Notes: a model not told the origin generated them from the letters alone. Shown: positions 23,792 through 47,448, numbered from the stretch's first letter. The stretch is DNA of 64,000 nucleotides from Natronogracilivirga saccharolytica (GCF_017921895.1 NZ_JAFIDN010000008.1:124001-188000); one strand, 5' to 3'. A program made the numbers and translations.

Positions 23792-23901
23792 AGCATGAGT
23801 ACGGACTGGATGCCTGAGGAAGATGAGTATCCGGGCGGCGATCCGGGAACGAACGGGCACATCACGGCTGGTGCCATGATGTGCCAATTCAGGTTCTGTT
23901 G

Positions 23902-26900
23902 TTATTTGATCAGGGTCATCGACCGGGTCAGTGCCTGTCCGTCATCCAGCTGGACGCGATAGATGTACACGCCGCTGGCCAGATGGCTGGCATCAAAGGA
24001 AACATGATGCGTTCCGGCCGGCAGGGACTCATCTGAAAGCAGGGAGGCAACCTGTCTCCCAAGGGTGTCATACACCCGCAGTGTCACATTGCTTTGACTT
24101 GGAAGGTCGAATGCAATTTTGGTCGTGGGATTGAACGGGTTGGGATAGTTTTGCTGCACACGGAACGACTGCGGCAGCTCATCGGCCTCATGCCCGGCAT
24201 CTACCGTAACGATGTCATCCTGTCCACCGGCCTGATAGTAACGGGCGGCAAACTCCTGGATGTACAGGTTGGCGATTCGGGCATCCTCGATAATGATGGT
24301 ATTCTCGTCATTGCGCCGGTTTGCCGAACTGGACCAGTTGTGGGATCCGGTTATGACTTTGCCGTTCCATTCCGCCTGCTCACCGTCAATGACAGCGTAT
24401 TTGTGATGCATCAGGGGACTGGTGAGCGTGTGCATATCGGCAAAAGCAGCAATGTCATCATACTGGCTTCCCTGCTGGCCCGGCTGACCCATGACGCCGC
24501 GGATGGTTACACCTGCGGCATTCCGGTTAAAAAGTGCGTTGGTGTAGCCGGTCCGGGTAATGAGCATGGTACCCAGGTTTACGGAATGCTCTGCCGTCCT
24601 GATGGCGTCAATGATAGCCGCCTCGGTGTTGCCCTGCGGACTGAAAAACAGGCGGACATAGCTGTCACCAATCCAGAAGGTGGATGGGTTGACTACGATT
24701 TTTTGTGAGCCGAAACGTGATTCGCCTGCATCCGGCGTGGTGGTGTCACTTCCCCATTTCTGGTTGAACTCACGTGTATAGGCCCCGGCGATGGCCACAT
24801 CCTGAAACTCAATCATATTCTGGTTGTGGACGTTGGTGCCGTTGTCGGTGGCATTCCAGGAACTGGTGATAAGCCAGACATCTTCCGGGTCGCCGCCGTT
24901 GTAATCAATCACGGCGTATTTGTTGTGGTGAAGGCCCTCGCGTCCGCTGTTGGCATCGCCGAAGTCGCTTTCGATGACCGGGACATCGCTGTTTTCGAGC
25001 GCATTGACAAAATTGTCGGTTGCTGTGTTGTGATCGACAATGACCCGCACATCCAGACCGCGGTTGTGGGCACCTGCAATGGCCGATGCGATGTTGCTTC
25101 CAACTGTCCCGCTAATGCTGTAAAAGGCCAGGTCAAGCGAGTGCCCGGCGCTGTTGATGCGATCAATCAGATGATCGTCAAAGGCATAGTTGGAAATTGC
25201 CTCTTCGAACGTAGCCAGAGTGTGATCCACATCCTGATTGAAGTAGACGTTTACCTCCTGTGTGGTTCCTTCTGGGGATGAGGTTGTCACCAGATAATTG
25301 GAGGTGCGGGTGGTATCCTCGCCAAGTGCCGAACGAAGCTGAACATTGTAGACTGTGGCGGGATCCAGTCCCTCCAGTGTAATCGTATGATCGGTTTTGT
25401 GCTGATCATCTTCGACTATCCCCAGCTCGTACTCATCTGTCAGGCCATATCGTATTTCGGAGGTGCCTTCAGCATCGGTTTCCCACTCAAAGGTGATGGA
25501 CGATGATGTTGCCGACACCTCGTAAGGTGTATCGCTGACGATGATCGGCGCATCGCCGACAGGCATGAAGTCGCTTCGGTCTCTCGGGAAGACCTGGACG
25601 AAATCCAGGAACCTGCTTGCTGCTCCGGTGATCTGTACTTCGTCGAACGGGATGGTCATGCCGGGGATATCGGTGTATCTGGAAATCCGGATTTCACTGG
25701 TGCCCGTTTGATCTTCTATATCGTAGTTGGTGTCACCGGAAAAACGGCCGTCATCAAGAATTCGGACAGCATCCAGCCGCACAAGCTGGCCTTCATAATC
25801 ACCGGTTTCGAGCTGCTCAACGGTCAGCACAGTGGGCTCAATGTCCCTGCGTCCCTCAGGATAGACCTCAAAAATGACAGACTCGAAATCATCGGTCGGC
25901 GCGATCTGAACAAGGTCATTAAATGTCGTGAGCGGACCGGTGACCACAATGGAGTCGCCTTTGGAAACTTCAAGAGTAAATCCCAGCGAGTCGTCACGCA
26001 TAAGCGGATTGTAATAAGCCGCGATACCGGCAGTTTCGTCCTGGAAGTAAATCGGACCGGAAAACTCGTCAGTTACAGTGACCCAGCCGCTGACCGATAC
26101 GAGCGTGCCCATTGGCATTTCCCGGGCATCGGCAATGTCGATGGGTTCATCCGGATCAAGACCGCTTCCGGACAGTGAGGCCTCATATTGCTGCGCCTCA
26201 GGATCATTTGAGACGATGGAAAGGGTGCCGGATGCGTCGCCTTCGCTTACCGGTTCAAACACCACCTCCATCTCTGCCGATTCCGACGGGGAAAGTTCTG
26301 ACGGCGCATCACCTGAAAGTGAGAACCCGTCGCCGGTGACCGACACTGAACTTATTTCAAGATCCTGCTGGCCGGTATTGCTGATGGTCAGGGTTTGGCT
26401 GTCCGAACTTTCAAGAAGGACATAACCGAAGTCGATGCTGCCACCGGACTGGACAACGCTGCCATCTGCCTCGACGCGCAGTCGCGGTTCATCCGTGTCT
26501 TCGACAAACTCGGTAACTTCGAAATTGTCGATGTTGACGCGGTTGTCTGAGCCTTCACTGGATAGAATGCGAAACCGGACGTTGCCGTCGATGTTGGCTT
26601 CGATATCCGCCTGAACCAGTTCGCTTTCCGGCTGCAGCTCATCACCGAGATCATTCCAGCTGTTTCCCCCGTCCTCAGAATATTGCAGCCGGACCAGCGC
26701 GCCGCTGTCGTTGCCGAAGTTTGCATAATAAAAACGGACGTCACCTGCGCCGAAGGTGTCGAACTGCATTTCAATGTAACCGTCACGGATACGGACGGAC
26801 TGGGATCCCATTCTTCTGTCGCCATCCAGACTGCCGATCAGCGCGTCATCAAACATCCAGTCTCCGCTGGACAGTTCTACAGTTCCAGGGGCATACGCGC

Positions 26901-27006
26901 CTTTGGAACCGTCTTCAAAGTCTTCAAAAAGCTGCGAAAAAGCCGCAGCCGGCAGAAGCAGCAATAGTATCGTCAATAAACTGAGTAATTGTAAGGGTGA
27001 TTTCAT
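23902..27006 (-). CDS. Secreted multidomain protein with paired phospholipase D/nuclease (HKD) motifs and sorting domain
   Basis: A 1034-residue exported protein. In order: signal peptide (1-24), a jelly-roll-like segment (25-165), an Ig-like choice-of-anchor-D type domain (about 175-285), an OB-fold-like domain (about 290-480, with SGWVTVTDEFSGPIYFQDE), a fibronectin III-like domain (about 485-575) and two PLD halves. The HKD motifs are His694/Lys696/Asp701 and His867/Lys869/Asp874, both intact. The tail from about 950 carries NYPNPFNPTTKIAFDL and ends SMTLIK, a FlgD-like sorting domain. PLD enzymes cut phosphodiesters in phospholipids or DNA; which applies is not known. The neighbours suggest extracellular nucleic acid. 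Confidence 0.88.
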   Translation of the reverse strand: MKSPLQLLSLLTILLLLLPAAAFSQLFEDFEDGSKGAYAPGTVELSSGDWMFDDALIGSLDGDRRMGSQSVRIRDGYIEMQFDTFGAGDVRFYYANFGNDSGALVRLQYSEDGGNSWNDLGDELQPESELVQADIEANIDGNVRFRILSSEGSDNRVNIDNFEVTEFVEDTDEPRLRVEADGSVVQSGGSIDFGYVLLESSDSQTLTISNTGQQDLEISSVSVTGDGFSLSGDAPSELSPSESAEMEVVFEPVSEGDASGTLSIVSNDPEAQQYEASLSGSGLDPDEPIDIADAREMPMGTLVSVSGWVTVTDEFSGPIYFQDETAGIAAYYNPLMRDDSLGFTLEVSKGDSIVVTGPLTTFNDLVQIAPTDDFESVIFEVYPEGRRDIEPTVLTVEQLETGDYEGQLVRLDAVRILDDGRFSGDTNYDIEDQTGTSEIRISRYTDIPGMTIPFDEVQITGAASRFLDFVQVFPRDRSDFMPVGDAPIIVSDTPYEVSATSSSITFEWETDAEGTSEIRYGLTDEYELGIVEDDQHKTDHTITLEGLDPATVYNVQLRSALGEDTTRTSNYLVTTSSPEGTTQEVNVYFNQDVDHTLATFEEAISNYAFDDHLIDRINSAGHSLDLAFYSISGTVGSNIASAIAGAHNRGLDVRVIVDHNTATDNFVNALENSDVPVIESDFGDANSGREGLHHNKYAVIDYNGGDPEDVWLITSSWNATDNGTNVHNQNMIEFQDVAIAGAYTREFNQKWGSDTTTPDAGESRFGSQKIVVNPSTFWIGDSYVRLFFSPQGNTEAAIIDAIRTAEHSVNLGTMLITRTGYTNALFNRNAAGVTIRGVMGQPGQQGSQYDDIAAFADMHTLTSPLMHHKYAVIDGEQAEWNGKVITGSHNWSSSANRRNDENTIIIEDARIANLYIQEFAARYYQAGGQDDIVTVDAGHEADELPQSFRVQQNYPNPFNPTTKIAFDLPSQSNVTLRVYDTLGRQVASLLSDESLPAGTHHVSFDASHLASGVYIYRVQLDDGQALTRSMTLIK

Positions 27007-27159: not shown

Positions 27160-28923
27160 TTATTTTACCAGCATCATGGTTTTTGCAGCTGCAGGATGCC
27201 CGTCAACCGAAATGCGGTAGAGATAGAGTCCGCTCGACAATCCCTCTGCATCAAAAGAAACCTCGTGATGCCCGGCAGATTTGTCAATGCCGTCAAGGAT
27301 GCTGGAAACAAGACGCCCGGTTACATCATAGACCTGAAGTGTTACGCGCCCTGCTTCCGGCAGTTCAAATGAAATTCTGGTTGTGGGATTGAAGGGGTTG
27401 GGGTAATTCTGGTTCAGAGTAAGGACCTCCGGCACAGCGTTTTCTTCCGGATCACCGGTGGCGGAAGTGATGGTGAGATCGGCCGTCCCGCCGGCTTCAT
27501 AATAGCGGGCCGCAAATTCCTGATAGTACAGGTTGGCGATGTGGTCATCGCGGATTATGATGGTGTTTTCATCGCTGTTTTCATTGCCGTTGCGGGACCA
27601 GTTCATCGAGCCGGTAATTACCTGTCCGCTGCCGGAACCCGGTTCGTAAGGGTCAATAATTGCTGTTTTGTGGTGTAGAAGAATGTCGCTTGCGGCCCCG
27701 TGATCGTGGACATCGGCAAATCCTGAAAGCTGGTTGAAAAGGCTGCTGTTGTATGTGATATCTCCTATAGCCCCCCGAACGGTTTTTCCGTCGTTATCCA
27801 GAGACCGGAGTACATCGAGGTAGGGCCATTGCGTGATAAGATACTTGGGCAGAGCCACGCCCTGTTCGGCGCTGCCGAGCCTGCTGATAATTTCGCTCTG
27901 CGTGTTTGCCTGCGGACTGAAGAAGATATCGATCTCAATATCATCAATCCAGAACCGTGTCGGATTGACAACCTCCTTGTTTTGTGAAAAATGCGCATTC
28001 CCGGCATCGGGTTCAAACCCGTCGCTTCCCCACATCTGGTTGAACTCGGCACGATAGCCTCCGGCCAACGCGGGATCCTGGAACTCGATCATATTTTGAT
28101 ACTGCTCTTCAGAGCCGGTATCGGTGGAATTCCATGAGCTGATAATCAGCCAGGTATCAGAAGGGTCGTCGCTGTCATAATCAATGATGGCAAATTTGTT
28201 GTGCATGAGTCCGTCCCGGCCGCGGTTATCACCAAACTCGCTTTGAATGACTTCAATATTATTTTCGAGTCTGAGGGTTTGACGGATTTGATTTGCAGGG
28301 TTGCCGAGGTTGTGATGCATGATTACGCGGACCTGAACTCCCGAACGTGCCGCGCCAATCAGGGCCCGTTCGATATCACTTCCGGTATTGCCGCTAATGT
28401 TGTAAAATGTAATATCGACAGACTGTTGGGCATTTCGTATGCGGCTGGCATAGTGCGATCCGAAATCGAAATCAGCAGTGGCTTCCGACCGCCATGCCGC
28501 ATCGGAAAATACCGAACCGTTGAAGTAGGTGTTGATTTCACCCGTCGCTGCGACCGGAGACCCGGTTGAAACAATGACAGGGTCAGACCATGTGGTATCG
28601 CTGCCGGAGGCGTTTCCTACTTTGAGCCTGTAAATTTGTGCCGGGGACAGCCCGTCCAGCGTGACATTGTGTGTGGAAAGTTGATTTTCAATGGAAACAA
28701 CACCTTTCTCCAGATCCGGTGTCCGTCCGTAGCGAACGACACTGTTAGCCGGAGAACCGGACTCCCAGGAAAGTGTAATGCTGCTGTCGGTAGCCGCCGT
28801 TTCATAAGGCGGGGCTGAGGTGACGGGCGGCGCATCTGCCAGCAGCTGAACCGGGGAAAAAGCAGTCAGGGTAAACAGCAACAGCAAAGAAGCAGAGAAG
28901 GGAAGAGGTTTACAAGAGAACAT
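27160..28923 (-). CDS. Secreted phospholipase D/nuclease-like protein with sorting domain
   Basis: A 587-residue paralogue of the next gene downstream, lacking its first 450 or so residues. Signal peptide 1-30, a fibronectin III-like domain (about 32-122), two PLD halves with HKD motifs His241/Lys243/Asp248 and His417/Lys419/Asp424, and a C-terminal sorting domain (NQNYPNPFNPTTRISFEL to TMMLVK). Both HKD motifs keep their key residues, so activity is expected. It lies 153 bases upstream of the larger paralogue on the same strand, consistent with tandem duplication followed by domain gain or loss. Confidence 0.88.
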   Translation of the reverse strand: MFSCKPLPFSASLLLLFTLTAFSPVQLLADAPPVTSAPPYETAATDSSITLSWESGSPANSVVRYGRTPDLEKGVVSIENQLSTHNVTLDGLSPAQIYRLKVGNASGSDTTWSDPVIVSTGSPVAATGEINTYFNGSVFSDAAWRSEATADFDFGSHYASRIRNAQQSVDITFYNISGNTGSDIERALIGAARSGVQVRVIMHHNLGNPANQIRQTLRLENNIEVIQSEFGDNRGRDGLMHNKFAIIDYDSDDPSDTWLIISSWNSTDTGSEEQYQNMIEFQDPALAGGYRAEFNQMWGSDGFEPDAGNAHFSQNKEVVNPTRFWIDDIEIDIFFSPQANTQSEIISRLGSAEQGVALPKYLITQWPYLDVLRSLDNDGKTVRGAIGDITYNSSLFNQLSGFADVHDHGAASDILLHHKTAIIDPYEPGSGSGQVITGSMNWSRNGNENSDENTIIIRDDHIANLYYQEFAARYYEAGGTADLTITSATGDPEENAVPEVLTLNQNYPNPFNPTTRISFELPEAGRVTLQVYDVTGRLVSSILDGIDKSAGHHEVSFDAEGLSSGLYLYRISVDGHPAAAKTMMLVK

Positions 28924-29234: not shown

Positions 29235-31355
29235 ATGACGAATAATCCGCTACGAACCAGCTTATCATTTGCACTTCTTTTAACATTATTTGCAGTAACG
29301 GCCCAGGCTCAGCAGGTATTCGAGCGTAAAACGGTAGAAGTCAGCAATATGGGTATTTCCTACACCAATGTAGGAGCGATCGGAACCCCGGGCCGCCAGA
29401 ATAATCCCGGCCTCGCACCCAGCATGGAGTTTCCGGCAGGATCGGGAACCGAGCACCTGTTTGAGGCCGGTCTGTGGATCGGCGCCATCCGTGACGGAGT
29501 GACCACCGTTTCAACCGGAGCCGTCACCAATCCGTCCGGTTATACGCGTGCCGGTCAGGCCGGATATGAATTTACCAACGACGGGATGCCGATCATGGAG
29601 CGGTCCAGCCTGCCTGACAGTGATTTTTTCTCTCCCGATGCAGTAAGCCACCAGGACTTTGTAGCCGAGTTCTCTGACCGGCGGGACGTCGTATCCGGCC
29701 GGCCCATCGCCGATCATGAAGACCCGCTTTACGCCGATGTGCGCATGGAGGCTTACAACTGGAATTTCGGGTTTACCGATGGCATCAGCATTATCAAATA
29801 CGAAATTACCAACAACAGCCATGAACACCGCAGCGGCGGCGGGTTTACCTGGGAGGATGTCTACTTCGGCATGTATTCTGATCTTGTGGTCAGAAATATC
29901 AATACTACCGAGGAGTCCGGTAGTGCCTTTTTCAATAAAGGAGGCGTAGGCTATATAGATTCACTGTATACATTATATGCCTTTGACTCAGGATCGACGG
30001 ATTTTCCCAGAACCGATACCTATGGAGCAACCGTGGTTCTCGGAGCAGAATACCGCGATGTGAACTTTCATCCCCGATATTCCGATGAGATGCTTGCCGA
30101 AGGATATGGAGAGGATGACATTCCGACCGTCGGTCCGCGTTTCTGGAAGTTCGGGCAGACCGGAGGATCTTTCAACCAGCCCAGAACAGATTCTGAACGC
30201 TATGCGGTACTTTCTGAAGACTGGGATTACACAGATTTTGAAGATCAGCTCCGCGAAGACGGTCAGGATGCCGACGGAAACTACATCCAGCTTCATCGGT
30301 TCGGACCGGTACCGGAAGTGGAACCGGGAGAGACGATAACTGTCTATTTTGCTTATGTCGCCGCACTGAAACCCGAAGAGTTTCAGAATCTCATTCCCTT
30401 TGACAATACCGCCGATCAGCTTGATAACCCCGAGTCACGCCGGTTACTGAAAGAGACTGCTGACTGGGCATTTCGTCTTTTTGAAGGTTTTGAAGACCCC
30501 GAAACCGATGAACGACAGCGGTTTCTGGTTCCCGAACCTCCCGAGGTGCCTCGTCTCCGCGTTGAGCTGGATGCCGGAAAAGCAACTCTGTACTGGGACC
30601 GCAGGGCGGAAGAAACAGTCGATCCGGTTTCCGGCGAGAAAGATTTTGACGGCTACCGGATTTACCGCAGCAAACCGGGATCGGACCTGACCGGAGATAT
30701 CGCCTTTGGCCCTGAACTGATTCGTGAGTATGACACCCCCGGAACTCCGGTGGGATATGGAACCGGATTTGACGATATCAGACTTTCAGAGCCCGTTTTA
30801 TTTGAAGATGATGACACTGAGTACTGGTACAGCTACACCTTTGACGGCCTGCTGAGCGGCTGGCAGTATCAGTTCTCGGTTACCGCATTTGACCGCGGCG
30901 ATGCAGGCAGGGAATCACTTGAAAGCAGCAGAACAGCCAATGCGGTCAGGGTTTTTCCGGGTACTGCCGTAAATGAAAATTTTGAAAGTGATGATCCCGA
31001 GTACAAAGTCGGGGTATATCCCAATCCTTATCGCATCAATGCAGCATGGGACGGCGGGACAGAATTTACCAGGAAAATAAACTTCCGCAACCTGCCGGCC
31101 CGTGCGGAAATCAGAATTTACACACTTGCCGGTGATATCGTTGCCACACTGCACCACGAAGCAGAAAACTATGACGGAGACATCCGCTGGTACCGTGAAC
31201 TAAGCGGCAGCAACCGGGTATTTTCAGGCGGCGAACATTCCTGGGATCTGCTCACAAAGGCAAATCAGAACCTCTCTACAGGCCTGTATCTGTTTTCGGT
31301 TCGTGACCGTGAGTCCGGTCATGTGCAAACCGGCAAATTTGCCATTATTAAATAG
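29235..31355 (+). CDS. Exported surface protein of unknown function with variant sorting tail
   Basis: A 706-residue protein with a clear signal peptide (LSFALLLTLFAVTAQAQQ). No enzymatic motif was recognised. The first 400 residues are Gly/Asp-rich and aromatic, with a conserved-looking EAGLWIGAIRDG and TDGISIIKYEITNNS. A fibronectin III-like region follows (about 430-560, WDRRAEETVDPVSGEKDFDGYRIYRSK). The C-terminus from about 590 resembles a FlgD-like sorting domain, but the usual NPFN is NPYR (GVYPNPYRINAAW), and it is longer than normal, ending LYLFSVRDRE...KFAIIK. It begins the forward surface block, 54 bases before the next gene. Confidence 0.7.
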   Translation: MTNNPLRTSLSFALLLTLFAVTAQAQQVFERKTVEVSNMGISYTNVGAIGTPGRQNNPGLAPSMEFPAGSGTEHLFEAGLWIGAIRDGVTTVSTGAVTNPSGYTRAGQAGYEFTNDGMPIMERSSLPDSDFFSPDAVSHQDFVAEFSDRRDVVSGRPIADHEDPLYADVRMEAYNWNFGFTDGISIIKYEITNNSHEHRSGGGFTWEDVYFGMYSDLVVRNINTTEESGSAFFNKGGVGYIDSLYTLYAFDSGSTDFPRTDTYGATVVLGAEYRDVNFHPRYSDEMLAEGYGEDDIPTVGPRFWKFGQTGGSFNQPRTDSERYAVLSEDWDYTDFEDQLREDGQDADGNYIQLHRFGPVPEVEPGETITVYFAYVAALKPEEFQNLIPFDNTADQLDNPESRRLLKETADWAFRLFEGFEDPETDERQRFLVPEPPEVPRLRVELDAGKATLYWDRRAEETVDPVSGEKDFDGYRIYRSKPGSDLTGDIAFGPELIREYDTPGTPVGYGTGFDDIRLSEPVLFEDDDTEYWYSYTFDGLLSGWQYQFSVTAFDRGDAGRESLESSRTANAVRVFPGTAVNENFESDDPEYKVGVYPNPYRINAAWDGGTEFTRKINFRNLPARAEIRIYTLAGDIVATLHHEAENYDGDIRWYRELSGSNRVFSGGEHSWDLLTKANQNLSTGLYLFSVRDRESGHVQTGKFAIIK

Positions 31356-31408
31356 TTTATCCATCCTTTTCAGAAAACCAATCAATAATCACCTAAAGAA
31401 GAAACAAT

Positions 31409-34189
31409 ATGAAATCAGGATTACTGACTTTTGTTTTTGGATTGCTCATTCTTTCCCTGTCAGCAGGGGATCTGCTGGCTCAGGGTTACCAGGAAGTGAC
31501 AATCCGGGACTTGAATACCTACGAGGAACCTCCGCAGACTTCGGATGACTTCCCCGACCATCCTCTGGTCGATGAAGCTGTTGAGTTTACGGCCATCGTA
31601 CTCAGCAACCCGAGGTCATCCGGACTTTCTAATTTTGAGCCTGAAGATGCAGGCGACGACGGTGTTGAAATATCACGGATTCACTTCTTCGTAATTGACA
31701 CCACCGCTTATTCCCAGGGCAAAGAGGGAATGTACATGCATGTTGTAGCCACGGATGTTGCGGCCTTTGAAACACTTGAAAGGGGTGACATGGTAACCAT
31801 GCGGGGGACGCATGAGTTTTATAACAACACCGTGCAGTTTAACCCTGATGATTCCGACTTTGAAACCAATATTCTGATCGGCGGTGATGCCAATCCTGAT
31901 GCCAGGTATCAGGAGCTGCTCGAGCCGATCACGCTGACAACCAGTGATCTTAATCAAATTGCCGATGAAGAAGGAGGTACATTCCGGTTCCGTCCCGAAG
32001 CCTACCCTGATTACATCAACGCCTATGTTCGAATGGAAGGCCAGGAGATAATTGGTTCCGAACTGGATGATACCGGCCGCCCCAATTATTACTGGGTTGA
32101 TAATGAGGGGGTCGCTATGCAGGATCGTGACATTTCACTTCGATACCGCAATGACCGGAATGACGCACAGGGTGGCTATCGCGAAGGCTATAATTTCAGA
32201 CGCGAAGATACTGACGGACCATTCCGTCCGCCATCAAGCGGAAGTATCGTGAATATCAGCGGCTTTGTGGTTTGGGACACCTTTGACGGAGCTTTTGGTC
32301 TGAACGAGGGGCCGGGTGAAGAAGCTTTGCTGCTTGCACCCATGGAAGATGGTATTCTCTGGTGGCTTGGCGAACGAACAGAAGAAGACCCGAACAGCGG
32401 TGAGCCCTGGCCGAATGACCTTGAAGTGCTCGGGTTTCCTCCAGTCATTTCCAACTTTAACCTCTCCTCCTCTGAACCTGCACAAGGTGAAACCGTAACG
32501 GTTTCTGCAGATATTGCAGGCCCCGAAGGTGAGGAAGTAGATGATGTCATCATTACCTATAACACTACAAGGGGTGATAGCGAAACCACCGATATGACTC
32601 ATGATGGTGACGGATCATACAGCTATGAATTCCCTGTTTTTGATGATTTTACAGCGGTCAGTTTTGTGATTGAAGCCACAACGGAAGTGGAACTGGCTTC
32701 CGGAGAAATAATCCCGATTACAGCCCGGTTCAGCGATGGAAGCCTGGATGTTGCAGGAGAGCAGCTTTCAATGCGATTTGTATATCTCGGTGATGAAATC
32801 ACTTCCATAGAGACTATCCAGCGTACCATGGACGGAACACGCGGCCCAAGTCCGTTTGAAGACTTCGAAGGCATCGGTATCAACATTGAAGCTGTTGTCG
32901 TTTCCGGCGGCAATGATGGATTTGTTGTGGTTCATGACGGAAATGAAGCATGGTCAGGTCTTCCGCTTGCTTCATCCGGTGACGTTCCGGATCTCCGGCG
33001 CGGTGACAGAATTACGATTACAGACGGGACCATTTCAAGTGCATTCGACAATGTATTTCTGGATGATGTCAGCTTTACCACAAACGGTACCGTTGAGGAT
33101 TTTGACGAATACATTCCTGTGATTACTACATCCCAGGCCCGCCATAATTCGGGAAGAGCATACGAGGGAATGATCATCAAGCTCGAGAACGTGGAAGTTC
33201 AGACCAGCCAGGCTGATGCGCCGGGGAATGACTTCGGCGAGTGGGCGCTCAGACCTCAGGATGATCCTGACGGACGTGTACTTCGTGTTCGCAACCGGCC
33301 CAGTTTTGCCGATATTACCGAAGGACTGGACAGTAACATCCCGAATGATCTGAATGCCCATATGCGAGTCGGTGCCGGCATTGATGCCGTTTACGGACTT
33401 ATGGCCTATTCTTTCGGCAATCCGAAAATCCAGCTCCGCACAGTGGATGACATTGTTTCAGATGAGGTATTTACCTGGCCGACCAGAGATATCGATCTGT
33501 ACAGGTTCCAGCGTTCCGATGCCGCGGCTCCGTCCGAAGGTGCAGCGGATACCATCAGAACCGAACACGAAAATGTTGCCGAATGGGATTTTGCCACATC
33601 CTATGACGGAAATGATTTCACTTACCGTTTCGTCCTTGATGTTTCCGGCGGCGATTTTTCCGATCCTGTCTTTTCCTCTCCGAGCGATCAGGACGGAACC
33701 ATGCCGGAAATGACTCTTTCAAGTGCAGAACTGGAAGATATCGTGGAAGAGCATATGGATGCCGATGAATCGAAAACATTCGTCTGGACGGTGTTCCTGG
33801 TAGCCGATGACGGCGAAGAAGTTCAGGTTTCCGACAAGGACGGGCCCGAATTCATTCCTGCCTACCGCGAGGTGCTTATCCAGGGAAGTCTGACAACTTC
33901 CGGCGAAGCGGAAGACGAACTGCCCAGAACCGTTGAACTGAAGCAGAATTTCCCGAACCCGTTCAACCCGACGACGGTAATCTCATTTGCTGTTCCGGAG
34001 GATACGGACGTGAGACTGACGGTTTATGATGTGCTCGGCAGGCAGGTGACACAGCTTGTGAATGAGCATAAATCAGCCGGTACGTATGAAGTCAATTTCG
34101 ATGCCACGCGCCTGTCAAGCGGTGTGTACATCTACAGACTTGAAGCCGGTGAAACCATACGGACAAAGCGAATGATGCTTGTCAAATAA
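31409..34189 (+). CDS. Large secreted protein with OB-like domains and C-terminal sorting domain
   Basis: A 926-residue protein with signal peptide (MKSGLLTFVFGLLILSLSAG). It contains two or more segments resembling the OB-fold domains of secreted nucleic-acid-binding proteins (about 45-150 and 480-600, GINIEAVVVSGGNDGFVVVH), an Ig-like segment near 350-440, and a C-terminal sorting domain with NFPNPFNPTTVISFAV and final KRMMLVK. The protein is very rich in Asp and Glu. No catalytic motif is visible; a binding or structural role is an inference. A strong terminator follows 11 bases after its stop. Confidence 0.75.
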   Translation: MKSGLLTFVFGLLILSLSAGDLLAQGYQEVTIRDLNTYEEPPQTSDDFPDHPLVDEAVEFTAIVLSNPRSSGLSNFEPEDAGDDGVEISRIHFFVIDTTAYSQGKEGMYMHVVATDVAAFETLERGDMVTMRGTHEFYNNTVQFNPDDSDFETNILIGGDANPDARYQELLEPITLTTSDLNQIADEEGGTFRFRPEAYPDYINAYVRMEGQEIIGSELDDTGRPNYYWVDNEGVAMQDRDISLRYRNDRNDAQGGYREGYNFRREDTDGPFRPPSSGSIVNISGFVVWDTFDGAFGLNEGPGEEALLLAPMEDGILWWLGERTEEDPNSGEPWPNDLEVLGFPPVISNFNLSSSEPAQGETVTVSADIAGPEGEEVDDVIITYNTTRGDSETTDMTHDGDGSYSYEFPVFDDFTAVSFVIEATTEVELASGEIIPITARFSDGSLDVAGEQLSMRFVYLGDEITSIETIQRTMDGTRGPSPFEDFEGIGINIEAVVVSGGNDGFVVVHDGNEAWSGLPLASSGDVPDLRRGDRITITDGTISSAFDNVFLDDVSFTTNGTVEDFDEYIPVITTSQARHNSGRAYEGMIIKLENVEVQTSQADAPGNDFGEWALRPQDDPDGRVLRVRNRPSFADITEGLDSNIPNDLNAHMRVGAGIDAVYGLMAYSFGNPKIQLRTVDDIVSDEVFTWPTRDIDLYRFQRSDAAAPSEGAADTIRTEHENVAEWDFATSYDGNDFTYRFVLDVSGGDFSDPVFSSPSDQDGTMPEMTLSSAELEDIVEEHMDADESKTFVWTVFLVADDGEEVQVSDKDGPEFIPAYREVLIQGSLTTSGEAEDELPRTVELKQNFPNPFNPTTVISFAVPEDTDVRLTVYDVLGRQVTQLVNEHKSAGTYEVNFDATRLSSGVYIYRLEAGETIRTKRMMLVK

Positions 34190-34200
34190 CATCCATTGAT

Positions 34201-34241
34201 TGACAGGCGGGAGACTGTGCTCCCGCCTGTCATTTTCATTT
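34201..34241 (+). terminator. Rho-independent terminator inside the surface-protein block
   Basis: Thirteen-pair GC-rich stem TGACAGGCGGGAG/CTCCCGCCTGTCA with a six-base loop, followed by TTTTCATTT. It lies between the 926-residue protein and the lipoprotein gene, so it should separate two transcripts or reduce read-through. Confidence 0.88.
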
Positions 34242-34268
34242 AAGGTTTACTCTGATATTCCCGTTTCA

Positions 34269-35780
34269 ATGCCCAAAAGGATACCGTTACTATTACCATT
34301 ACTGATTTTGTTTTTGATCTCCTCGTGTGATACCTCTTCAATAAGCGGAGAGTTCAAAGAAAATCAGCCGCCAAGAACATTTCTCTCTGTTGACCGCATT
34401 GATCTTCCTGATGAGCAGCGTCTGGCCAGCCGCGTGGATATTACCTGGTGGGGTGACGATCCTGACGGATATGTTGTTGCCTACGAAATTTGTGTTGGTG
34501 AAAATGAAGCACCCGATGATCAGTGCCATCCTGAGAGCGAAGAATGGGAATATACCGAAAGCACAGATACCACCATCACCCTGCCTTTAACCCCGGGCCA
34601 GGATACTGATGATGTGCTCTTCAGTGTCCGGGCAATAGATAATGAAGGTTTACGTGATCCCGAGGGTGCAAATGTACGTTTTCCTATCCGCAATTCACCT
34701 CCGGAAATATTTTTCGACCCGACACTCACACCGCCTGATACCACCTACTCGATTATGAGCTTTGGCTGGGAGGCAAGCGACCCGGATGGTGATGAAGATC
34801 TCAATTACATTGAAATGACCATGAATCTGGATGAGGACGATCCGGATGCCAATGACTGGATACGACTAGACCGGGATATCAATTTCATTACGCTTCAAAT
34901 AAACCCCAATGACATTGATGAAAACGGAAATGCTACTGCCGATCTGTACCTCGGCAGGGGAATGAGTCCTGCCGATGATGTTGTCAACAATATCAGACTT
35001 GAAGGTGATAATACCCTGCATGTACGGGCTTTTGATCAGTCAGAAGCGCAAAGCAGAACCGCCGAACATGAGTGGTATATCAAGGAACAAACTTCCAATA
35101 TCCTGTTTATCAATGATGACAACACCGCCGGTGCACCCGGCAATGTGGCGTTCCATACGGCATTTCTGGATCAGCTGGGTATAACATACGATTACTGGGA
35201 CATCTCTGAAGCACTCATACCATCGGGGAACGTACTGCCGACTCCCTTTGATCCCACTCTGCCGCTGGTTCTGGCCCAGTGGGACCATATCTATTACATT
35301 TCAAACAGTCTGGAACGCAACCTGTTGTATGCACTTGAGTTTACTTCAGATTTTCTGGCTGAGGGCGGATCCATGTTCATAAACATTCCATCCCGCGGTA
35401 TTTCATCCCAGAACGAGGATGCTGTCTTCAACTTCCTTCCGTTTTCCGGATTTCAGGAGCTCCCGGCAGGTGAAAGCCGGTTTATTCTCTTCCCGAATAC
35501 CGAAATTGAATCGCAAAATGCCAGTATCCCCGATCTGACACTGGCATCCGGCTCTCAGAATACACTGCCGCTGGTTCCCGAAGGTGATGCAAATCTCTTC
35601 TACAATGCAGAGTTCACACTGCGGGGTGAACATGAAATAAGCAGGCTTATTGCTGCCAGCAACAATGACCAGAATATTCTCTTCTTTGGTATAGACATGC
35701 GGGATATCACCGAAGACAGCCCGCTTGACCAGACTATGGAATACTTCCTGTTGGATCATCTTGGATTTGAAACAAACTGA
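34269..35780 (+). CDS. Lipoprotein with Ig/Fn3-like domains and a GATase1-like C-terminal domain
   Basis: A 503-residue lipoprotein read from ATG at 34269; the lipobox LISSC sits at residues 16-20. Repeated Ig-like segments with DDPDGYVVAYEI and ASDPDGDEDLNYIEMT suggest fibronectin III-like folds in the first 280 residues. The remainder (from about 280, NILFINDDNTAGAPGNVAFHTAFLDQL) looks like the flavodoxin/GATase1-like domain of secreted proteins of unknown role; no catalytic Cys-His-Glu triad was recognised. It is four bases before the TonB receptor gene, so they are almost certainly one operon and probably work at the same outer membrane site. Confidence 0.72.
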   Translation: MPKRIPLLLPLLILFLISSCDTSSISGEFKENQPPRTFLSVDRIDLPDEQRLASRVDITWWGDDPDGYVVAYEICVGENEAPDDQCHPESEEWEYTESTDTTITLPLTPGQDTDDVLFSVRAIDNEGLRDPEGANVRFPIRNSPPEIFFDPTLTPPDTTYSIMSFGWEASDPDGDEDLNYIEMTMNLDEDDPDANDWIRLDRDINFITLQINPNDIDENGNATADLYLGRGMSPADDVVNNIRLEGDNTLHVRAFDQSEAQSRTAEHEWYIKEQTSNILFINDDNTAGAPGNVAFHTAFLDQLGITYDYWDISEALIPSGNVLPTPFDPTLPLVLAQWDHIYYISNSLERNLLYALEFTSDFLAEGGSMFINIPSRGISSQNEDAVFNFLPFSGFQELPAGESRFILFPNTEIESQNASIPDLTLASGSQNTLPLVPEGDANLFYNAEFTLRGEHEISRLIAASNNDQNILFFGIDMRDITEDSPLDQTMEYFLLDHLGFETN

Positions 35781-35784
35781 CGCC

Positions 35785-38748
35785 ATGCTCAGACTAATAC
35801 TTATTATCGGAATAATAATTTTGCTGGGAGCACCGCTGGACAGTGTCGCCCGGGATGATAGAGGTACACTCAGAGGTCAGGTGACCGATGCAGAAACCGG
35901 CGAAGAGCTGATTGGTGTAAACATCACCATACAGGGAACCGACTTCGGTGCAGCTACCGACCTGGAAGGAAATTATGAAATCCGGAATATCCGGCCAGGT
36001 TCATATAACGTACAGGCCACGTATGTCGGTTTCGACCGGATGATGTTCACCGGAATCGAAATAAGAGCAGGTGAAACCACCGATCTGAACATTGAAATGA
36101 CTCCTGAGGTGCTCACAGCAGATGATGAAGTTATAGTCATCGGCGAGCGGCCCATTTTCGACATCGAAGAATCCGGATCCAGCTCCCGTGTAGGCAGATC
36201 AGATATTGATGCGGCTCCTGTTCGCCAGATTGATGAGGTTATTGGCCGCCAGGCGGGTGTCATCCGCGACCCGACCGGAATATACATCCGGGGTGGCAGG
36301 GCAGAAGAAACCGGATTTGTTGTTGACGGTGTATCCGCTCAGGACCCCCTGTCGGGAACAGGTATGGGACTTGATCTCGGATCCGGTGCCCTGCAGGAAG
36401 TTGAAGTTACGACCGGCGGTATTGACGTGGAGCATGGCAATGTAACTTCCGGACTTGTATCTGTTCGCACCAGAGAGGGCGGAGATACGTTTTCCGGATA
36501 CTTTTCGCATCAGCGTGACAATACCGGAACGGGATCAGACCCGCTTGTATCCGGTTTTGCTACTGATGTGTACGAGTTCAATCTTGGAGGACCAAGTATA
36601 CTGAACAATCAGATACTCAAGCCACTGGGTATCGGCCTGCCGGGTGAACTTTCCTTTTTCGTTACTGGCCAGGTGAACCTCACGGATGAATTTTTCGGAT
36701 ACACTGCCGATCAGCTCGAGTCCTCACTTTACGATTCTGATTTCTGGAGTCCCAGGATGGATAACCGCTGGAGCGGCATGTTGCGCATGACCTACCGTCC
36801 GCGTTCAGCCATGCGTATCGACGCAGCGTACCAGAGATCAGTCACCGTGAATCAGAATACGAGAATGCTTCAGGTTGTTGGTGACGATGTCCAGATCAGA
36901 CCCGGCTTCCAGTTTTTCCATGCACTGAACCTGGACAACGCCAACACGTACACCCATGACAGCAAACTGGCGTATATCAGGTGGACACATTCCATTGATT
37001 CCAATACCTATTACCGGTTTCAGTTCAGCCGTTTGTTTACTCGTCTGAGAGCCGATGCCAACGGACTTGACTGGAGGCCCGAACGAGTCGAAGGCGATCT
37101 CGATCCGGCCAGTATTGTTGTCCCTCCGGTTGATGAATTTGAAACCGGACAAGATTTCAGGTATGTGCTACCCGGTCCGGGACTGGTGAACAATGATGGC
37201 CTCGCAACGCTGTGGCATGATCACTATGCAGAACAGTACACTCTGCGCGGATCACTCACCAGGTACTTTTTTGACCAGAACAACAGGCTGCGCGTCGGGT
37301 TTGAAATGGTATTCAATGACTATCAGTGGATTGATATAACCAGACCCTGGGTAGGCGCCCCTATTGCAATCGGTGAAGACGAAGAGGAAGACGAAACACT
37401 AACCCAGACATCACGTCTTGGTGAATCCAGTGATATATGGGATGTTCGTCCGCGTCAGGGATCCATTTACGCCAGTGACCAGATCAGGTACCGCGGACTT
37501 ATTGCAAATATCGGTGCCCGTCTTGAATACTGGTTCCCGGGTGACTTTGTTGATGAGATGGTTGACAATCCGGATGCCCCGATTCCTGATGAAGTCCGGG
37601 AAGCGTATTACAATGATACCTACAATTTCTTCGGAAACCGGTTCAAGATGCGCCTGCTTCCGCGGATCAGCGTCTCTTTCCCCGTACGTGAAAACCAGAT
37701 GATGTATTTCAATTACGGACACCAGACGAAACTGCCGCATCCGTCACATGTGTATGCAGGACTTGATCCGTTTTACCAGGACCGGTCCTTCCTGGCCAGT
37801 CTGGGTAACCCCAATCTTGACCCCGAAGTCGATATCTCCTATGAAATCGGTATCAGAAACCAGCTAACCGCAAATGACGCCCTTAACATTTCTGCCTTCT
37901 GGAGTGACAAATATGACTTCATCACATCCGAGCGAATTCTTATTACCGATGTGACCGGCAGGGAAGTGGAGCGCGCGTACAGGGTAAATGGTGATTTTGC
38001 CAGAGTCAGGGGATTGGAAGTGACCTATATCAAACGTTATTCTGACTGGTTCCGCGGCAACATCTCCGCAACATACCAGCGGGCAGAAGGACTCAGCTCT
38101 ACCTCGCAGGATGCGCTTCAGGATCTGATAGTCGGCGGGCAGGCTTTTGGAAGCAACGTGGAAACGCCCCTTGCTTGGGACCGTCCCTGGGATTTCAGGG
38201 CTTCCGCCACTTTCCGGTATGACCGCAATTCACCGTTCCTGGACATACCCGGGCTCAACCAGTTTCAGCTGAATATTTCCGGATACTACCGGAGTGGAAT
38301 CCGCTATACACCAAGCGAATTCATACAAAACGAGCGTCATCCGATTACCGGTGAACGTACCTGGAGGCCTATCTACGAACGTAGTACCGATCCCTCCGAC
38401 CGGTTTTCCGAAAGCGGACCTGCCTGGTATGAAATTGACCTGAGTTTCCAGAAATGGTTTGATATTGCAGGTGCCCAAATGCGTTTCACTATTGATGTTA
38501 CCAACCTGCTGGACACAAAGAATCCTGCAATTATTAATACGGTAACCGGAGATTCTTATCGCACCGATTATCCTGACTCCCAGGAAGAACTCGAGGCGCT
38601 GCGCGATGACCGCTCCTGGGACGTACCAGGCAATGTCAGAGATCCGAGATATGTGGATCCCAGAGACAACAACCGTCCGGACTACATGAACCCTGCCAAC
38701 TTCCTTAAGCCCAGGCATGTAATGTTTGGTCTTTCCGTCGAATTTTAA
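35785..38748 (+). CDS. TonB-dependent receptor with carboxypeptidase-like N-terminal domain
   Basis: A 987-residue outer membrane receptor. ATG at 35785 gives a hydrophobic export signal. A carboxypeptidase regulatory-like domain comes first (about 28-110, GTLRGQVTDAETGEELIGVNI), then the plug domain (IDEVIGRQAGV, IYIRGGRAEETGFVVDGV) and the beta-barrel ending in MFGLSVEF with terminal Phe. The substrate is unknown. Unlike SusC it has no SusD partner beside it; instead a lipoprotein precedes it by four bases and a PorV-like barrel follows by 32. This suggests uptake or signalling tied to the surface proteins. Confidence 0.9.
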   Translation: MLRLILIIGIIILLGAPLDSVARDDRGTLRGQVTDAETGEELIGVNITIQGTDFGAATDLEGNYEIRNIRPGSYNVQATYVGFDRMMFTGIEIRAGETTDLNIEMTPEVLTADDEVIVIGERPIFDIEESGSSSRVGRSDIDAAPVRQIDEVIGRQAGVIRDPTGIYIRGGRAEETGFVVDGVSAQDPLSGTGMGLDLGSGALQEVEVTTGGIDVEHGNVTSGLVSVRTREGGDTFSGYFSHQRDNTGTGSDPLVSGFATDVYEFNLGGPSILNNQILKPLGIGLPGELSFFVTGQVNLTDEFFGYTADQLESSLYDSDFWSPRMDNRWSGMLRMTYRPRSAMRIDAAYQRSVTVNQNTRMLQVVGDDVQIRPGFQFFHALNLDNANTYTHDSKLAYIRWTHSIDSNTYYRFQFSRLFTRLRADANGLDWRPERVEGDLDPASIVVPPVDEFETGQDFRYVLPGPGLVNNDGLATLWHDHYAEQYTLRGSLTRYFFDQNNRLRVGFEMVFNDYQWIDITRPWVGAPIAIGEDEEEDETLTQTSRLGESSDIWDVRPRQGSIYASDQIRYRGLIANIGARLEYWFPGDFVDEMVDNPDAPIPDEVREAYYNDTYNFFGNRFKMRLLPRISVSFPVRENQMMYFNYGHQTKLPHPSHVYAGLDPFYQDRSFLASLGNPNLDPEVDISYEIGIRNQLTANDALNISAFWSDKYDFITSERILITDVTGREVERAYRVNGDFARVRGLEVTYIKRYSDWFRGNISATYQRAEGLSSTSQDALQDLIVGGQAFGSNVETPLAWDRPWDFRASATFRYDRNSPFLDIPGLNQFQLNISGYYRSGIRYTPSEFIQNERHPITGERTWRPIYERSTDPSDRFSESGPAWYEIDLSFQKWFDIAGAQMRFTIDVTNLLDTKNPAIINTVTGDSYRTDYPDSQEELEALRDDRSWDVPGNVRDPRYVDPRDNNRPDYMNPANFLKPRHVMFGLSVEF

Positions 38749-38780
38749 TGTTACCTTTGCTTTTTTAATATCCGCCTGCA

Positions 38781-39806
38781 ATGACTTACAACAGATATCT
38801 GTCTTTATTTATTCTTTTGCTGTTTTTGCCCGGGCTTGCTGCGGCTCAGGTGCTGCCGAGTTTGGGTGAGGCGCGCTCGGGAACCTACGGTTTTCAGTAC
38901 TTGAAAATCGGTCCTGATGCAAGGTCGGCAAGTATGGGAAGCTCAAGTGTCGCTGATGCAGCAGACGCCTCGGCATTGTACTGGAATCCGGCCATGTCGG
39001 CTCAGCTCGACAACTCACAGGTGTTGTTCGGACATACACAGTATTTCGCGGATATCGCCATGAACTATGCTTCCTATGTTCACAGATATCGTGATATCGC
39101 ACTTGGACTATCCTTCCAGATGCTTGATTCCGGTGAAATGGACGAAACAACCGAACTTCAGCCGGGAGGTACCGGCCGGACATTTCGAACAACTCACTTC
39201 GCTGTCGGATTGTCATTCGCCCAGGAACTGACGTCCCTTTTCAGCTACGGAGTCACCCTGAAATACCTTGATGAAAGTGTAGAAGAAGTAACATCGCGAA
39301 CCGGTGTTATTGATGCCGGATTCTTCTATCGCGTTGGTGACACCGGTCTGCGGTTCGCCGTCGGGTTGAATAATTTTGGGTTCGATGCCGATCCTTCCGG
39401 AGAAACAAAACGCAGACCCGGTCCAAACGAAACTGGCGCTGAGACTGACGAAGACGGGTTCATTGTCTATGATGAATTTACCGACGTTTCACCGCCTACC
39501 ACCTTTATCCTCGGCTCGGCCTTCGATCTGATTCAGCGCGATGATTTCAATATTACACTTACCGGACAGCTGACCAATCCGGCTGATACACAGGAACGCT
39601 TCAGTCTCGGCGCAGAGATGGACTATCTGAGAAGGTTTTTTGTCCGGACCGGCTATGAGTTTGGAGTGGATGAGTCTTATCTGCCGTCATTCGGAGCCGG
39701 GTTTAACTTTCCGCTCTACAACTACGGCATCCGTGCCGACTATGGCTTCAGCACAAGGGAGTACCTTGGAAGCATGCACAGAATTTCCTTAAGAATTGAC
39801 CTCTGA
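38781..39806 (+). CDS. PorV/PorQ-family outer membrane protein
   Basis: A 341-residue exported beta-barrel of the FadL-like PorV/PorQ group. Signal peptide MTYNRYLSLFILLLFLPGLAAAQ. The typical start of mature family members is seen (YLKIGPDARSASMGSSSVADAADASALYWNPA), and the barrel strands continue to a terminal LRIDL. In the type IX secretion system PorV carries exported cargo away from the translocon; many genomes have extra paralogues of unknown role, and this one, embedded among surface genes, is more likely a dedicated paralogue. The next gene begins two bases after its stop. Confidence 0.85.
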   Translation: MTYNRYLSLFILLLFLPGLAAAQVLPSLGEARSGTYGFQYLKIGPDARSASMGSSSVADAADASALYWNPAMSAQLDNSQVLFGHTQYFADIAMNYASYVHRYRDIALGLSFQMLDSGEMDETTELQPGGTGRTFRTTHFAVGLSFAQELTSLFSYGVTLKYLDESVEEVTSRTGVIDAGFFYRVGDTGLRFAVGLNNFGFDADPSGETKRRPGPNETGAETDEDGFIVYDEFTDVSPPTTFILGSAFDLIQRDDFNITLTGQLTNPADTQERFSLGAEMDYLRRFFVRTGYEFGVDESYLPSFGAGFNFPLYNYGIRADYGFSTREYLGSMHRISLRIDL

Positions 39807-39808
39807 TT

Positions 39809-41107
39809 ATGAAGACAATGAAGTACGTGATTTTGAACAAATGGCTGGCACTGATCGTGGTTGCCGGTCTCATCGGCGGATGTGATTCCATTTTTGGAAC
39901 AAAGGGAGATGATACCACCGATGAAATATTCGAAGAGGGAAGAATTGATCCGACACTGGTACCGGACGAAATCGGGTATGCCGCCCTGCTGCCGTTCTGG
40001 GACTTTTTTGATGCTCCCACGGACGTGTATATCGGTTACGACGAACTGGTATATGTAACGGATCGCAGTGGACTCCATCTGCTCGACAGAGCCGGGCGCA
40101 CCTACTACGAAACAATTGAGCTCGAGGGAGCTGTCTCGGTTACTCAGGATCGTGACCTGAATGTTTATGTGGCTGCGCGTTATGATACGGTCATTACCGC
40201 AGTTGACTCTAACCTGGTGTGGAACCTGCCGGCGGTGTACAAATTCAGAGATATAAATAAAGGCTCACCGGTTGCCGTCGACACCATCATACACCCGTTT
40301 GATGATTCCAGCCGGCCAACAGCTTCGGCCCAGCGCGGACGGCTGGACAAGGACAGTCCCAACAATCATGAGTTTGTAGAGTTCACGGATGTAACCGCAC
40401 TTTATGACAACACCATTTATATCTCCAGGAGAGGTCCGCAAAATATTACCGGTCAGGCAGCTGCACCGGACAATATTGTCATGGAATTTCAGCAGGATCC
40501 CGACCGCGAAGAAGGAAAAATGCGCAATAACCGGCTGATCAGAGCGCTGAGCCCGAATACACCGTCCCTGATCAGTGCCGTGGGACCCGGCGCAATCACC
40601 GGCCTGGCCGGACCTCCACAAAGCGAAGATATCACCCAGGACAGAAGCTTTATCATTGCCCAGGCTGATACTGATGCCAATATTCCCTTCAGAGTGCTTT
40701 GGATCAATGCCGAAATGACACCTGATGGTCTTCAGTTTGATCCGCGTTCGGAGTTGCTGTCACGTGATACCACCCAGGCAGAAAAGTTCCTTTATGACCA
40801 GTTTCGCTTTACCGAGCCTTCAGGCCTGGCTTTTTCCGCGGATGACCGCAATCACATTTTTGTAACTGATATTGCTACCGACAGCTTGTACCTGTTTCAG
40901 GCCCGCGGTGTGGAGGGGGTTAATCCGCCACCGGGGTCCGAACTTGAAAGAGCACAAAGTGTCTCATTCGGGGGGACCGGAGGAGGAGACCGGCAGTTTC
41001 GTGATCCGTCCGGTGTTGCCTATTTCGACCGTATCGTTTATGTTGCCGACACCGGTAACAACCGTATTACCCGTCACCGCCTGAATACGGACTTTGAACG
41101 AAACTGA
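39809..41107 (+). CDS. Lipoprotein with beta-propeller (NHL-like) repeats
   Basis: A 432-residue lipoprotein with lipobox LIGGC (residues 21-25). Repeats such as PTDVYIGYDELVYVTDRSGLHLLD, FSADDRNHIFVTDIATDSLYLFQ and DPSGVAYFDRIVYVADTGNNRITRH are NHL/six-bladed-propeller units. It probably sits at the outer membrane and binds a ligand or protein. It ends the four-gene run lipoprotein-TonB receptor-PorV-like-propeller, with only two bases from the previous gene. No enzyme motif was seen. Confidence 0.78.
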   Translation: MKTMKYVILNKWLALIVVAGLIGGCDSIFGTKGDDTTDEIFEEGRIDPTLVPDEIGYAALLPFWDFFDAPTDVYIGYDELVYVTDRSGLHLLDRAGRTYYETIELEGAVSVTQDRDLNVYVAARYDTVITAVDSNLVWNLPAVYKFRDINKGSPVAVDTIIHPFDDSSRPTASAQRGRLDKDSPNNHEFVEFTDVTALYDNTIYISRRGPQNITGQAAAPDNIVMEFQQDPDREEGKMRNNRLIRALSPNTPSLISAVGPGAITGLAGPPQSEDITQDRSFIIAQADTDANIPFRVLWINAEMTPDGLQFDPRSELLSRDTTQAEKFLYDQFRFTEPSGLAFSADDRNHIFVTDIATDSLYLFQARGVEGVNPPPGSELERAQSVSFGGTGGGDRQFRDPSGVAYFDRIVYVADTGNNRITRHRLNTDFERN

Positions 41108-46066: not shown

Positions 46067-47443
46067 TTATTTTTTTCTGTGTTTTCTGCCGTTGTTTTCT
46101 GATTCCTGCGACGCTCCGGAATCTTTGGCGGAATGACTGTCATTAACATCGTACGGAATAGTGCTTCTGTGGGGATCCGATTCAGGTGATCCGAGGGACT
46201 TTTGCAGCTCCTGCTCAATTTCGGATGTTATCAGGTGTTCCATCGATTCGGCATCGTCATGAACATGATCATCGGCAATATGCAGGTGATCAGTGAGGTA
46301 TTTTTCCCAGAGCCGGTGTACCCGGACAAGTCTGCGGGCTTCGCGCCGCCCGTCATAAGTAAGGACAAAGCCTTCATGAACTCCGGTGTATGCCTCGATC
46401 AGTTTTCTTTTTTTCAGTGATGAAAGCACGGATTTCAACTTCCGGGGTGACATGTACCGCCGTTTCCGGAGCTCGTCAAAACTGCGTGCTCTTTCCTGTT
46501 TTCCGTCTTCTTCTTCCATGGAATACAGCGTCTTGAGGATATTTTCGCAGGCCACTTTAAAGGAGAGCCGCTTCCGTTGAATATGGCGGGCAATTTCACC
46601 CCGCCGCGGAGCCAGAAGAAAGGAAATGAAGAAAACGAGAGCGGCACTGACAACCATCCACGGGCCGGTCGGCATGGCCGGAGCCGTGTAGCTGATAAAG
46701 GAACCGGTCACGCCGGAAAAGGCGCCGACGCCCGCGGCCAGTACGAGCATGATACCAAGAGAGTCGGTCCAGTAGCGGGCTGCAGCAGCGGGAATAATCA
46801 GCATCGATGCCATCAGTACGACGCCTACGGCCTGTATGCCGGCCGTAATGGTCATGACCATCAGCAATGCCAGCAGAAACTCCATTCGCTTGACAGGATA
46901 TCCGATGCTTCGGGCATACGACATGTCAAAACTGACCAGTTTGAACTCCTTGTATGCCAGCACAACCAGAACCAGAATAAGCAGACTGAGTCCACCGAAA
47001 ACTTTCACATCGGTTCCGACCATGGCTGCAGCCTGCCCGAACATAAAATCGTCAAGCCCGCTTTGATCGACATAGCCGGTGGACTGGATAAACGTCAAAA
47101 GTACAACGCCAAACCCGAAAAACACGGACAGCACCATTCCGATGGAGGCATCCGGAGCAATCCGGCTGTTGCGCGTGATGAAATCCATAGTCACCATGCT
47201 GAGCAGTCCGAATACGAAGGATCCCAGAATCAGCATGAACGGATCTTTTCCGCCGGCAACAATAAATGCAAGGCAGACTCCGGGCAGTACGGCGTGTGCA
47301 ACGGCATCTCCGACAAGGGCCCGCCTTCGCAGGATGGCAAAACATCCGAGCGCTCCTGCCGAGATGCCCAGCAGAATGGTTCCGGCAAGTACAAACCGGA
47401 TGTTGGGATCCTGTAGCGAAAAGAATTCAAAGAAAACATCCAT
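46067..47443 (-). CDS. Metal ABC transporter permease fused to a DtxR/MntR-like C-terminal domain
   Basis: A 458-residue fusion read from ATG at 47443 (TTG at 47452 also possible). Residues about 1-280 are an ABC-3 permease (RRRALVGDAVAHAVLPGVCLAF, AVGVVLMASMLIIPAAAARYWTD). Residues about 290-418 look like a winged-helix plus dimerisation domain of the DtxR/MntR family: KLKSVLSSLKKRKLIEAYTGV, then RVHRLWEKYLTDHL with His376 and ESMEH with Glu399, Glu402, His403, matching metal ligands of MntR. The Asp of the N-terminal helix, present in the separate regulator, is Asn301 here. The C-terminal 40 residues are hydrophilic. It could let the transporter sense cytoplasmic metal. Confidence 0.9.
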   Translation of the reverse strand: MDVFFEFFSLQDPNIRFVLAGTILLGISAGALGCFAILRRRALVGDAVAHAVLPGVCLAFIVAGGKDPFMLILGSFVFGLLSMVTMDFITRNSRIAPDASIGMVLSVFFGFGVVLLTFIQSTGYVDQSGLDDFMFGQAAAMVGTDVKVFGGLSLLILVLVVLAYKEFKLVSFDMSYARSIGYPVKRMEFLLALLMVMTITAGIQAVGVVLMASMLIIPAAAARYWTDSLGIMLVLAAGVGAFSGVTGSFISYTAPAMPTGPWMVVSAALVFFISFLLAPRRGEIARHIQRKRLSFKVACENILKTLYSMEEEDGKQERARSFDELRKRRYMSPRKLKSVLSSLKKRKLIEAYTGVHEGFVLTYDGRREARRLVRVHRLWEKYLTDHLHIADDHVHDDAESMEHLITSEIEQELQKSLGSPESDPHRSTIPYDVNDSHSAKDSGASQESENNGRKHRKK

Positions 47444-47448
47444 ACGGC

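Follow-up and report, generated by a model that had tools for sequence, protein, structure and literature searches.

A conserved six-gene locus of Bacteroidota encoding a candidate SusD-less, TonB-driven uptake complex for extracellular nucleic acid

How DNA passes the outer membrane of Bacteroidota, whether as food or for transformation, is an unsettled question, and in marine sediments, degraders of extracellular DNA belonging to this phylum were reported to be widespread (PMC8289736). In Riemerella anatipestifer, RA0C_RS04915, an outer-membrane protein of the CarboxypepD_reg TonB-receptor type, and the adjacent RA0C_RS04920, a DUF5689 protein, were reported to be essential for natural transformation (PMC8459023), and tonB mutants were reported to transform poorly (PMC8459023, PMC8383284). 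Among proteins of the type IX secretion system (T9SS), PorZ of P. gingivalis was shown to retain its C-terminal domain and to be held by PorQ (PMC10202324), and cognate PorV-like barrels were suggested to protect such tails (PMC8545088).

Here we describe a locus from Natronogracilivirga saccharolytica that combines parts of these systems. The window, i.e., the whole stretch of DNA analysed (64,000 nucleotides), corresponds to contig C8:124001-188000 of a 3.75 Mb genome, the closest relatives of which are Balneolales MAGs, many of them from soda-lake sediments as judged from isolate names. The genome was found to encode a T9SS, with SprA on C8 and a canonical PorU-PorV pair on C12, and contains 97 matches to the PF18962 tail.

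Organization and conservation of the six-gene locus

A preliminary description of the window had listed six exported proteins in a row: two sorting-tail proteins followed by a lipoprotein, a TonB receptor, a PorV-like barrel and a propeller lipoprotein. It gave 4, 32 and 2 bases as the spacing in the second part and noted that SusD is absent. All six ORFs, here named g1 to g6 and all located on the plus strand, were found in this order; the gaps g3-g4, g4-g5 and g5-g6 were shown to be 4, 32 and 2 bases, the features of g3 to g6 agreed with the description, and no SusD match was found among the genes scanned. A strong terminator-like hairpin on the same strand (34201-34232; 13 pairs followed by a T-rich tail) splits the run into g1-g2 and g3-g6.

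The two sorting tails differ from each other, and on this point the description was only half right: g2 carries a standard type A T9SS tail (TIGR04183/PF18962), whereas g1 matched neither model. g1 (29235-31355) encodes an exported protein of 706 aa with a conserved but unnamed beta-rich N-terminal part (residues 30-430 approximately), an fn3-like domain (approximately 440-565) and a C-terminal sorting domain (approximately 587-706), and its last 120 residues matched only the C-terminal domains of PorZ and PorU. Compared to the PorZ equivalog NF052228, g1 scored 26.2 bits, in the C-terminal domain only (cut-off 260 bits), and it does not qualify as PorZ. The AlphaFold model of g1 (mean pLDDT 83.9) showed the beta-rich and fn3 domains, and a fold search in PDB gave long, weak matches only (TM 0.26 or less) and no convincing fold. 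g2 (31409-34189) encodes an exported protein of 926 aa that contains two DUF5689-like modules (within approximately 40-330 and 455-700) with an Ig-like domain between them, and a SusE-like domain before the tail.

g3 (34269-35780) encodes a lipoprotein outside the Pfam families, the lipobox cysteine of which (C20) was invariant in 37 homologues. Its start was placed at the ATG at 34269, which carries the signal peptide, the listed TTG at 34200 being too early. The model of g3 (pLDDT 87.9) showed two fn3-type domains and a C-terminal alpha/beta domain; fold searches gave generic fn3 matches only, and PDB profile searches with g1 and g3 gave nothing useful. g4 (35785-38748), present as a single copy, encodes a TonB-dependent receptor of 987 aa and starts at the ATG at 35785, since the listed TTG at 35725 falls within g3. 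CarboxypepD_reg (PF13715), Plug (PF07715, E 1.7e-6) and barrel (PF14905) matches gave it the combination of Plug and C-terminal barrel that defines TonB-dependent receptors, and its score against the SusC/RagA model TIGR04056 (64.6 bits) was far below the cut-off of 368.25. g5 (38781-39806; 341 aa) encodes an outer-membrane barrel of the PorV/PorQ family (NF033709, E 9.9e-52, 176.5 bits, cut-off 90 bits). It stayed below both equivalog cut-offs (90.6 bits for NF033711, cut-off 220; 75.7 bits for NF033710, cut-off 250), and a weak Toluene_X/FadL match was also found. Thus, g5 is not the canonical PorV, which adjoins PorU on C12 and there reached a PorV equivalog score of 297 bits. g6 (39809-41107) encodes an NHL-repeat lipoprotein, probably a beta-propeller, the lipobox cysteine of which (C25) was invariant in 33 homologues.

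The preliminary description had staked its reading on these genes occurring together in other genomes, which they decisively do. The order and orientation g1-g2-g3-g4-g5-g6 were kept in 30 further loci of the class (15 from the order, the other 15 from fetches covering the class), so that the synteny extends through both orders of the class, and also in 16 loci of 11 families outside it. Each g5 orthologue fetched from a relative is flanked by g4 and g6. Of 296 sampled genomes of the phylum, 89 gave full-length matches to g1 (profile) and exactly these 89 gave them to g4 (sequence), none being discordant, a shared occupancy that is far beyond chance; in 79 of these 89 genomes the two genes are at most 5.7 kb apart. 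The six genes are a conserved unit. Full-length g4 matches showed 51-67% identity over the class and 36-45% outside, which is unusually high conservation for a TonB receptor. The earlier reading is thus supported: a surface uptake complex that has its own PorV paralogue fits best, with a physical complex and transport through it being what we infer.

Some loci departed from this organization. In one family (f46; L189 and L194) no separate g2 was detected, g3 is unusually long (874-899 aa), and the gene after g6 encodes a similar exported protein of 358-364 aa, DUF1028-like by eye; in another (f31) g1-g2 and g4 are on different contigs. Bacteroidia MAGs (L112-L115, L118) contained a lone g4 relative (43-49% identity) with the other five genes not nearby, except that in L115 a g3 relative is located approximately 7 kb away. 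Two WOR-3 MAGs (L119, L120) contained a full-length g4 relative (28-29% identity) and none of the partner genes. One genome in which no g4 was found showed a g1 fragment with an in-frame stop (G263:C58:15939-18661) approximately 1.2 kb from a PLD nuclease, possibly a decayed locus. An aldo/keto reductase and a Met-zincin downstream of g6 were rejected as parts of the system, being beside the locus in the window's own family only. Further downstream in the window, a single 461-aa ORF (46067-47452) combines an ABC-3 metal permease domain with an iron-dependent repressor C-terminal domain.

Linked nucleases and the DUF5689-like modules

Secreted depolymerases linked to the locus, as in SusCD-type loci, were found here in the form of nucleases. 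Directly upstream of g1 and on the opposite (minus) strand, the window encodes three nucleases, each with a type A T9SS tail: one of the endonuclease/exonuclease/phosphatase family (EEP; 22472-23887) and two of the PLD family (NucT-like; 23902-27006, which also contains DUF5689, and 27160-28923). Among solved structures, the EEP profile was nearest to DNase gamma and DNase I, and its alignment showed invariant residues of the kind expected at an active site; the PLD proteins were nearest to NucT-type models.

Secreted nucleases are linked to the locus in many lineages. An EEP nuclease was found within 15 kb of g4 in 33 of the 70 class genomes holding both, usually approximately 2.4 kb downstream. 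In the second order, most loci have the EEP homologue directly behind g6, and in three Balneolales families it is found 7-12 kb away, whereas the majority of the Balneolaceae sampled carry the EEP nuclease unlinked to the locus. EEP nucleases were present in 70 of 73 locus-positive and 25 of 73 locus-negative genomes, and outside the class 28 of 46 genomes with the locus and 9 of 176 without it contained a PLD homologue, the counts coming from phylogenetically related genomes that are not independent tests. In 13 of those 28 genomes the PLD homologue is within 6 kb of g4. Besides, a PF01663 phosphodiesterase of the nucleotide-pyrophosphatase type directly follows g6 in several Balneolales loci and in L078, EEP and LTD proteins follow the locus in L183, and an EEP protein with DUF5689 is nearby in L184. 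Three enzyme families thus show this association in lineages that are far apart.

DUF5689 provides a further connection, being fused to EEP and PLD nucleases in the phylum. By profile comparison, the two modules of g2 matched the nuclease-fused DUF5689 with 95% and 96% probability and each other with 95%, and the control comparisons of g1, g3 and g6 with DUF5689 proteins gave less than 8%. PF18942 was above the cut-off in g2 of six other genomes (G022, G023, G025, G028, G031, G092), and g2 of the window was matched by profile comparison only (95-96%). The statement in the preliminary description that the function could not be read from sequence was thus too pessimistic, as the linked secreted nucleases and the DUF5689-like modules point to nucleic acid.

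The same domains are found in the Riemerella pair. In loci probably from Flavobacteriia (L229-L243; the families were assigned on architecture), a DUF5689 gene follows a CarboxypepD_reg receptor, with an EEP nuclease beside the pair in most and divergently oriented in several; we found no mention of an EEP nuclease beside the Riemerella-type pair in the parts of PMC8459023 that were consulted. g4 showed 14% identity to the Flavobacteriia receptor (hhalign), i.e., general TonB-receptor homology only, and orthology of the two is not claimed. Because the receptors are only remotely related, the six-gene locus and the Riemerella-type pair are regarded as analogous loci with the same parts rather than as orthologous ones. 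The comparison with RS04915/RS04920 was based on domain architecture and gene order only.

PorZ-like tails, sister clusters and proposed function

A search of the whole genome with the g1 tail found four proteins only, each encoded together with a TonB receptor and a PorV-family barrel, namely in the locus described here and in clusters on C1, C8 and C9. The clusters on C8 (L249:3975-11791) and C9 (L250:6503-14235) are paralogous, with the order receptor, g1-like protein, PorV-family barrel and TIG-domain lipoprotein, and their g1-like and PorV proteins are approximately 60-67% identical. A T9SS-tailed phosphodiester glycosidase (NAGPA) is located near the former, and a T9SS-tailed amidase and a GHL10 protein near the latter. 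In the cluster on C1 (L248:333-15391), a TonB receptor, a 1314-aa g1-like protein and a PorV-family barrel are followed by T9SS cargo, a LacI regulator and a T9SS-tailed alpha-amylase, and it looks like a SusD-less starch locus. The 1314-aa protein was rejected as PorU by NCBIfam, PorU being encoded on C12. Since the same architecture of receptor, g1-like protein and PorV-family barrel occurs beside an alpha-amylase on C1 and beside an amidase and GHL10 on C9, the neighbouring enzymes plausibly tell the substrate, and the four clusters would be utilisation loci with a T9SS-delivered protein in the role of SusD.

As the six genes are kept together in order across much of the phylum and stand beside secreted DNA-cutting enzymes, they probably form a machine that captures and imports nucleic acid. 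We give a probability of roughly 55% to the reading that they encode a SusD-less, TonB-driven outer-membrane uptake complex for extracellular nucleic acid. The neighbouring secreted nucleases would cut the polymer. g2, secreted by the T9SS and probably attached to the surface via its type A tail, would capture nucleic acid with its DUF5689-like modules. g1 would take the same route, keep its PorZ-like tail unprocessed and stay docked on the dedicated barrel g5, as PorZ is held by PorQ; this analogy draws on the tail class and the gene pairing. The surface lipoproteins g3 and g6 may complete the complex around g4, which, given its receptor architecture, would import DNA and/or RNA fragments with TonB energy. 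The whole set would then act like a SusCD utilisation locus that lacks SusD, and imported DNA serving as food only, or feeding transformation as well, would both fit.

Three other explanations were considered. The linked phosphodiesterases could attack phospholipids or nucleotides, with g4 or the PorV-family barrel, a member of the FadL superfamily, importing the products, so that the locus would scavenge phospholipid or organic phosphate in general. The EEP, PLD and PF01663 folds do include phospholipases and nucleotide pyrophosphatases, the weak Toluene_X/FadL match of g5 suits this reading, and SusCD-like Pus loci of Flavobacterium with phosphodiesterases are induced by phosphate starvation (PMC8115612). 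We nevertheless consider it unlikely, as the EEP profile is nearest to DNases and the PLD proteins to NucT-type models, and DUF5689, the LTD accessory domains and the Riemerella pair all point to nucleic acid. That parallel of domains to RS04915/RS04920 (PMC8459023) in turn suits a DNA importer serving natural transformation and not nutrition, with the linked nucleases processing DNA before uptake. Strong single-domain DUF5689 loci and the six-gene locus shared no genome or family in the sample, and such mutual exclusivity is expected of functional equivalents but is confounded by phylogeny. The locus is unlinked to comEC, which with its presence in 288 of 296 genomes is uninformative as a co-occurrence test of competence, and the several secreted nucleases per locus suit feeding better; a role in transformation alone therefore appears improbable.

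A dedicated T9SS surface-display module, with g5 as shuttle or anchor for g1, the rest structural or adhesive, and the nucleases nearby merely as T9SS cargo, would account for the pairing of PorZ-like tails with PorV-family barrels in all four clusters and has a precedent in type B cargo and its PorP/SprF partners (PMC12618676). All four clusters also contain a TonB receptor, and despite the 97 tail-bearing candidates in the genome the neighbours of the locus are repeatedly nucleases across unrelated families, which makes display very unlikely. Returning to the uptake of nucleic acid, a more far-reaching version is put forward only tentatively: the locus could be the means by which Bacteroidota other than flavobacteria import DNA across the outer membrane, powered by TonB and independent of pili, and would then be a functional equivalent of the Riemerella pair. 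It could also belong to a general, undescribed class of utilisation loci that lack SusD and use a T9SS-secreted protein anchored by PorV/PorQ instead, the sister loci of this genome serving starch-like glycans and cell-wall material.

Comparison with described systems

The locus parallels the only outer-membrane transformation genes of the phylum identified by transposon mutagenesis that were found in our literature search. It also suggests a role for the T9SS in building receptor complexes, in which PorV/PorQ-like barrels, and not SusD, would be the dedicated anchors. With six named genes, perfect co-inheritance of g1 and g4 and contrasts of presence and absence within one family, it makes the question of DNA passage directly testable. 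No description of the six-gene system or of SusD-less PorV loci was found in the open-access literature searched, and the system is assembled from known parts: a TonB receptor, T9SS cargo and a PorV/PorQ-family barrel.

Like RA0C_RS04915/RS04920 and the Flavobacteriia relatives (PMC8459023), the locus has a CarboxypepD_reg TonB-receptor-type barrel close to a DUF5689 or DUF5689-like protein, with an EEP nuclease alongside, but the receptor is remote (14%) and no g1, g3, g5 or g6 was found in the Flavobacteriia loci fetched. It shares with PorZ-PorQ and PorU-PorV of the T9SS attachment complex (PMC10202324, PMC8545088) a PorZ/PorU-like C-terminal domain, in g1, paired with a barrel of the PorV/PorQ family. 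It differs from them in that a beta-rich domain and fn3 replace the PorZ propellers, g5 scores too low for either the PorQ or the PorV equivalog, and the canonical PorU-PorV is encoded elsewhere, on C12. As in type B CTD cargo with cognate PorP/SprF shuttles (PMC12618676), a distinct class of sorting tail is genetically paired with its own barrel, yet here the barrel is of the PorV/PorQ family, the tail is PorZ-like, and the cluster is built around a receptor and not an adhesin. Finally, SusCD loci and the Pus (phosphate utilisation) loci of Flavobacterium (PMC8115612) likewise combine a TonB-dependent receptor, surface lipoproteins and linked secreted depolymerases; in contrast to these, the six-gene set has no SusD, its receptor is far below the SusC/RagA cut-off, and it includes a T9SS-delivered protein together with a PorV/PorQ-like barrel.
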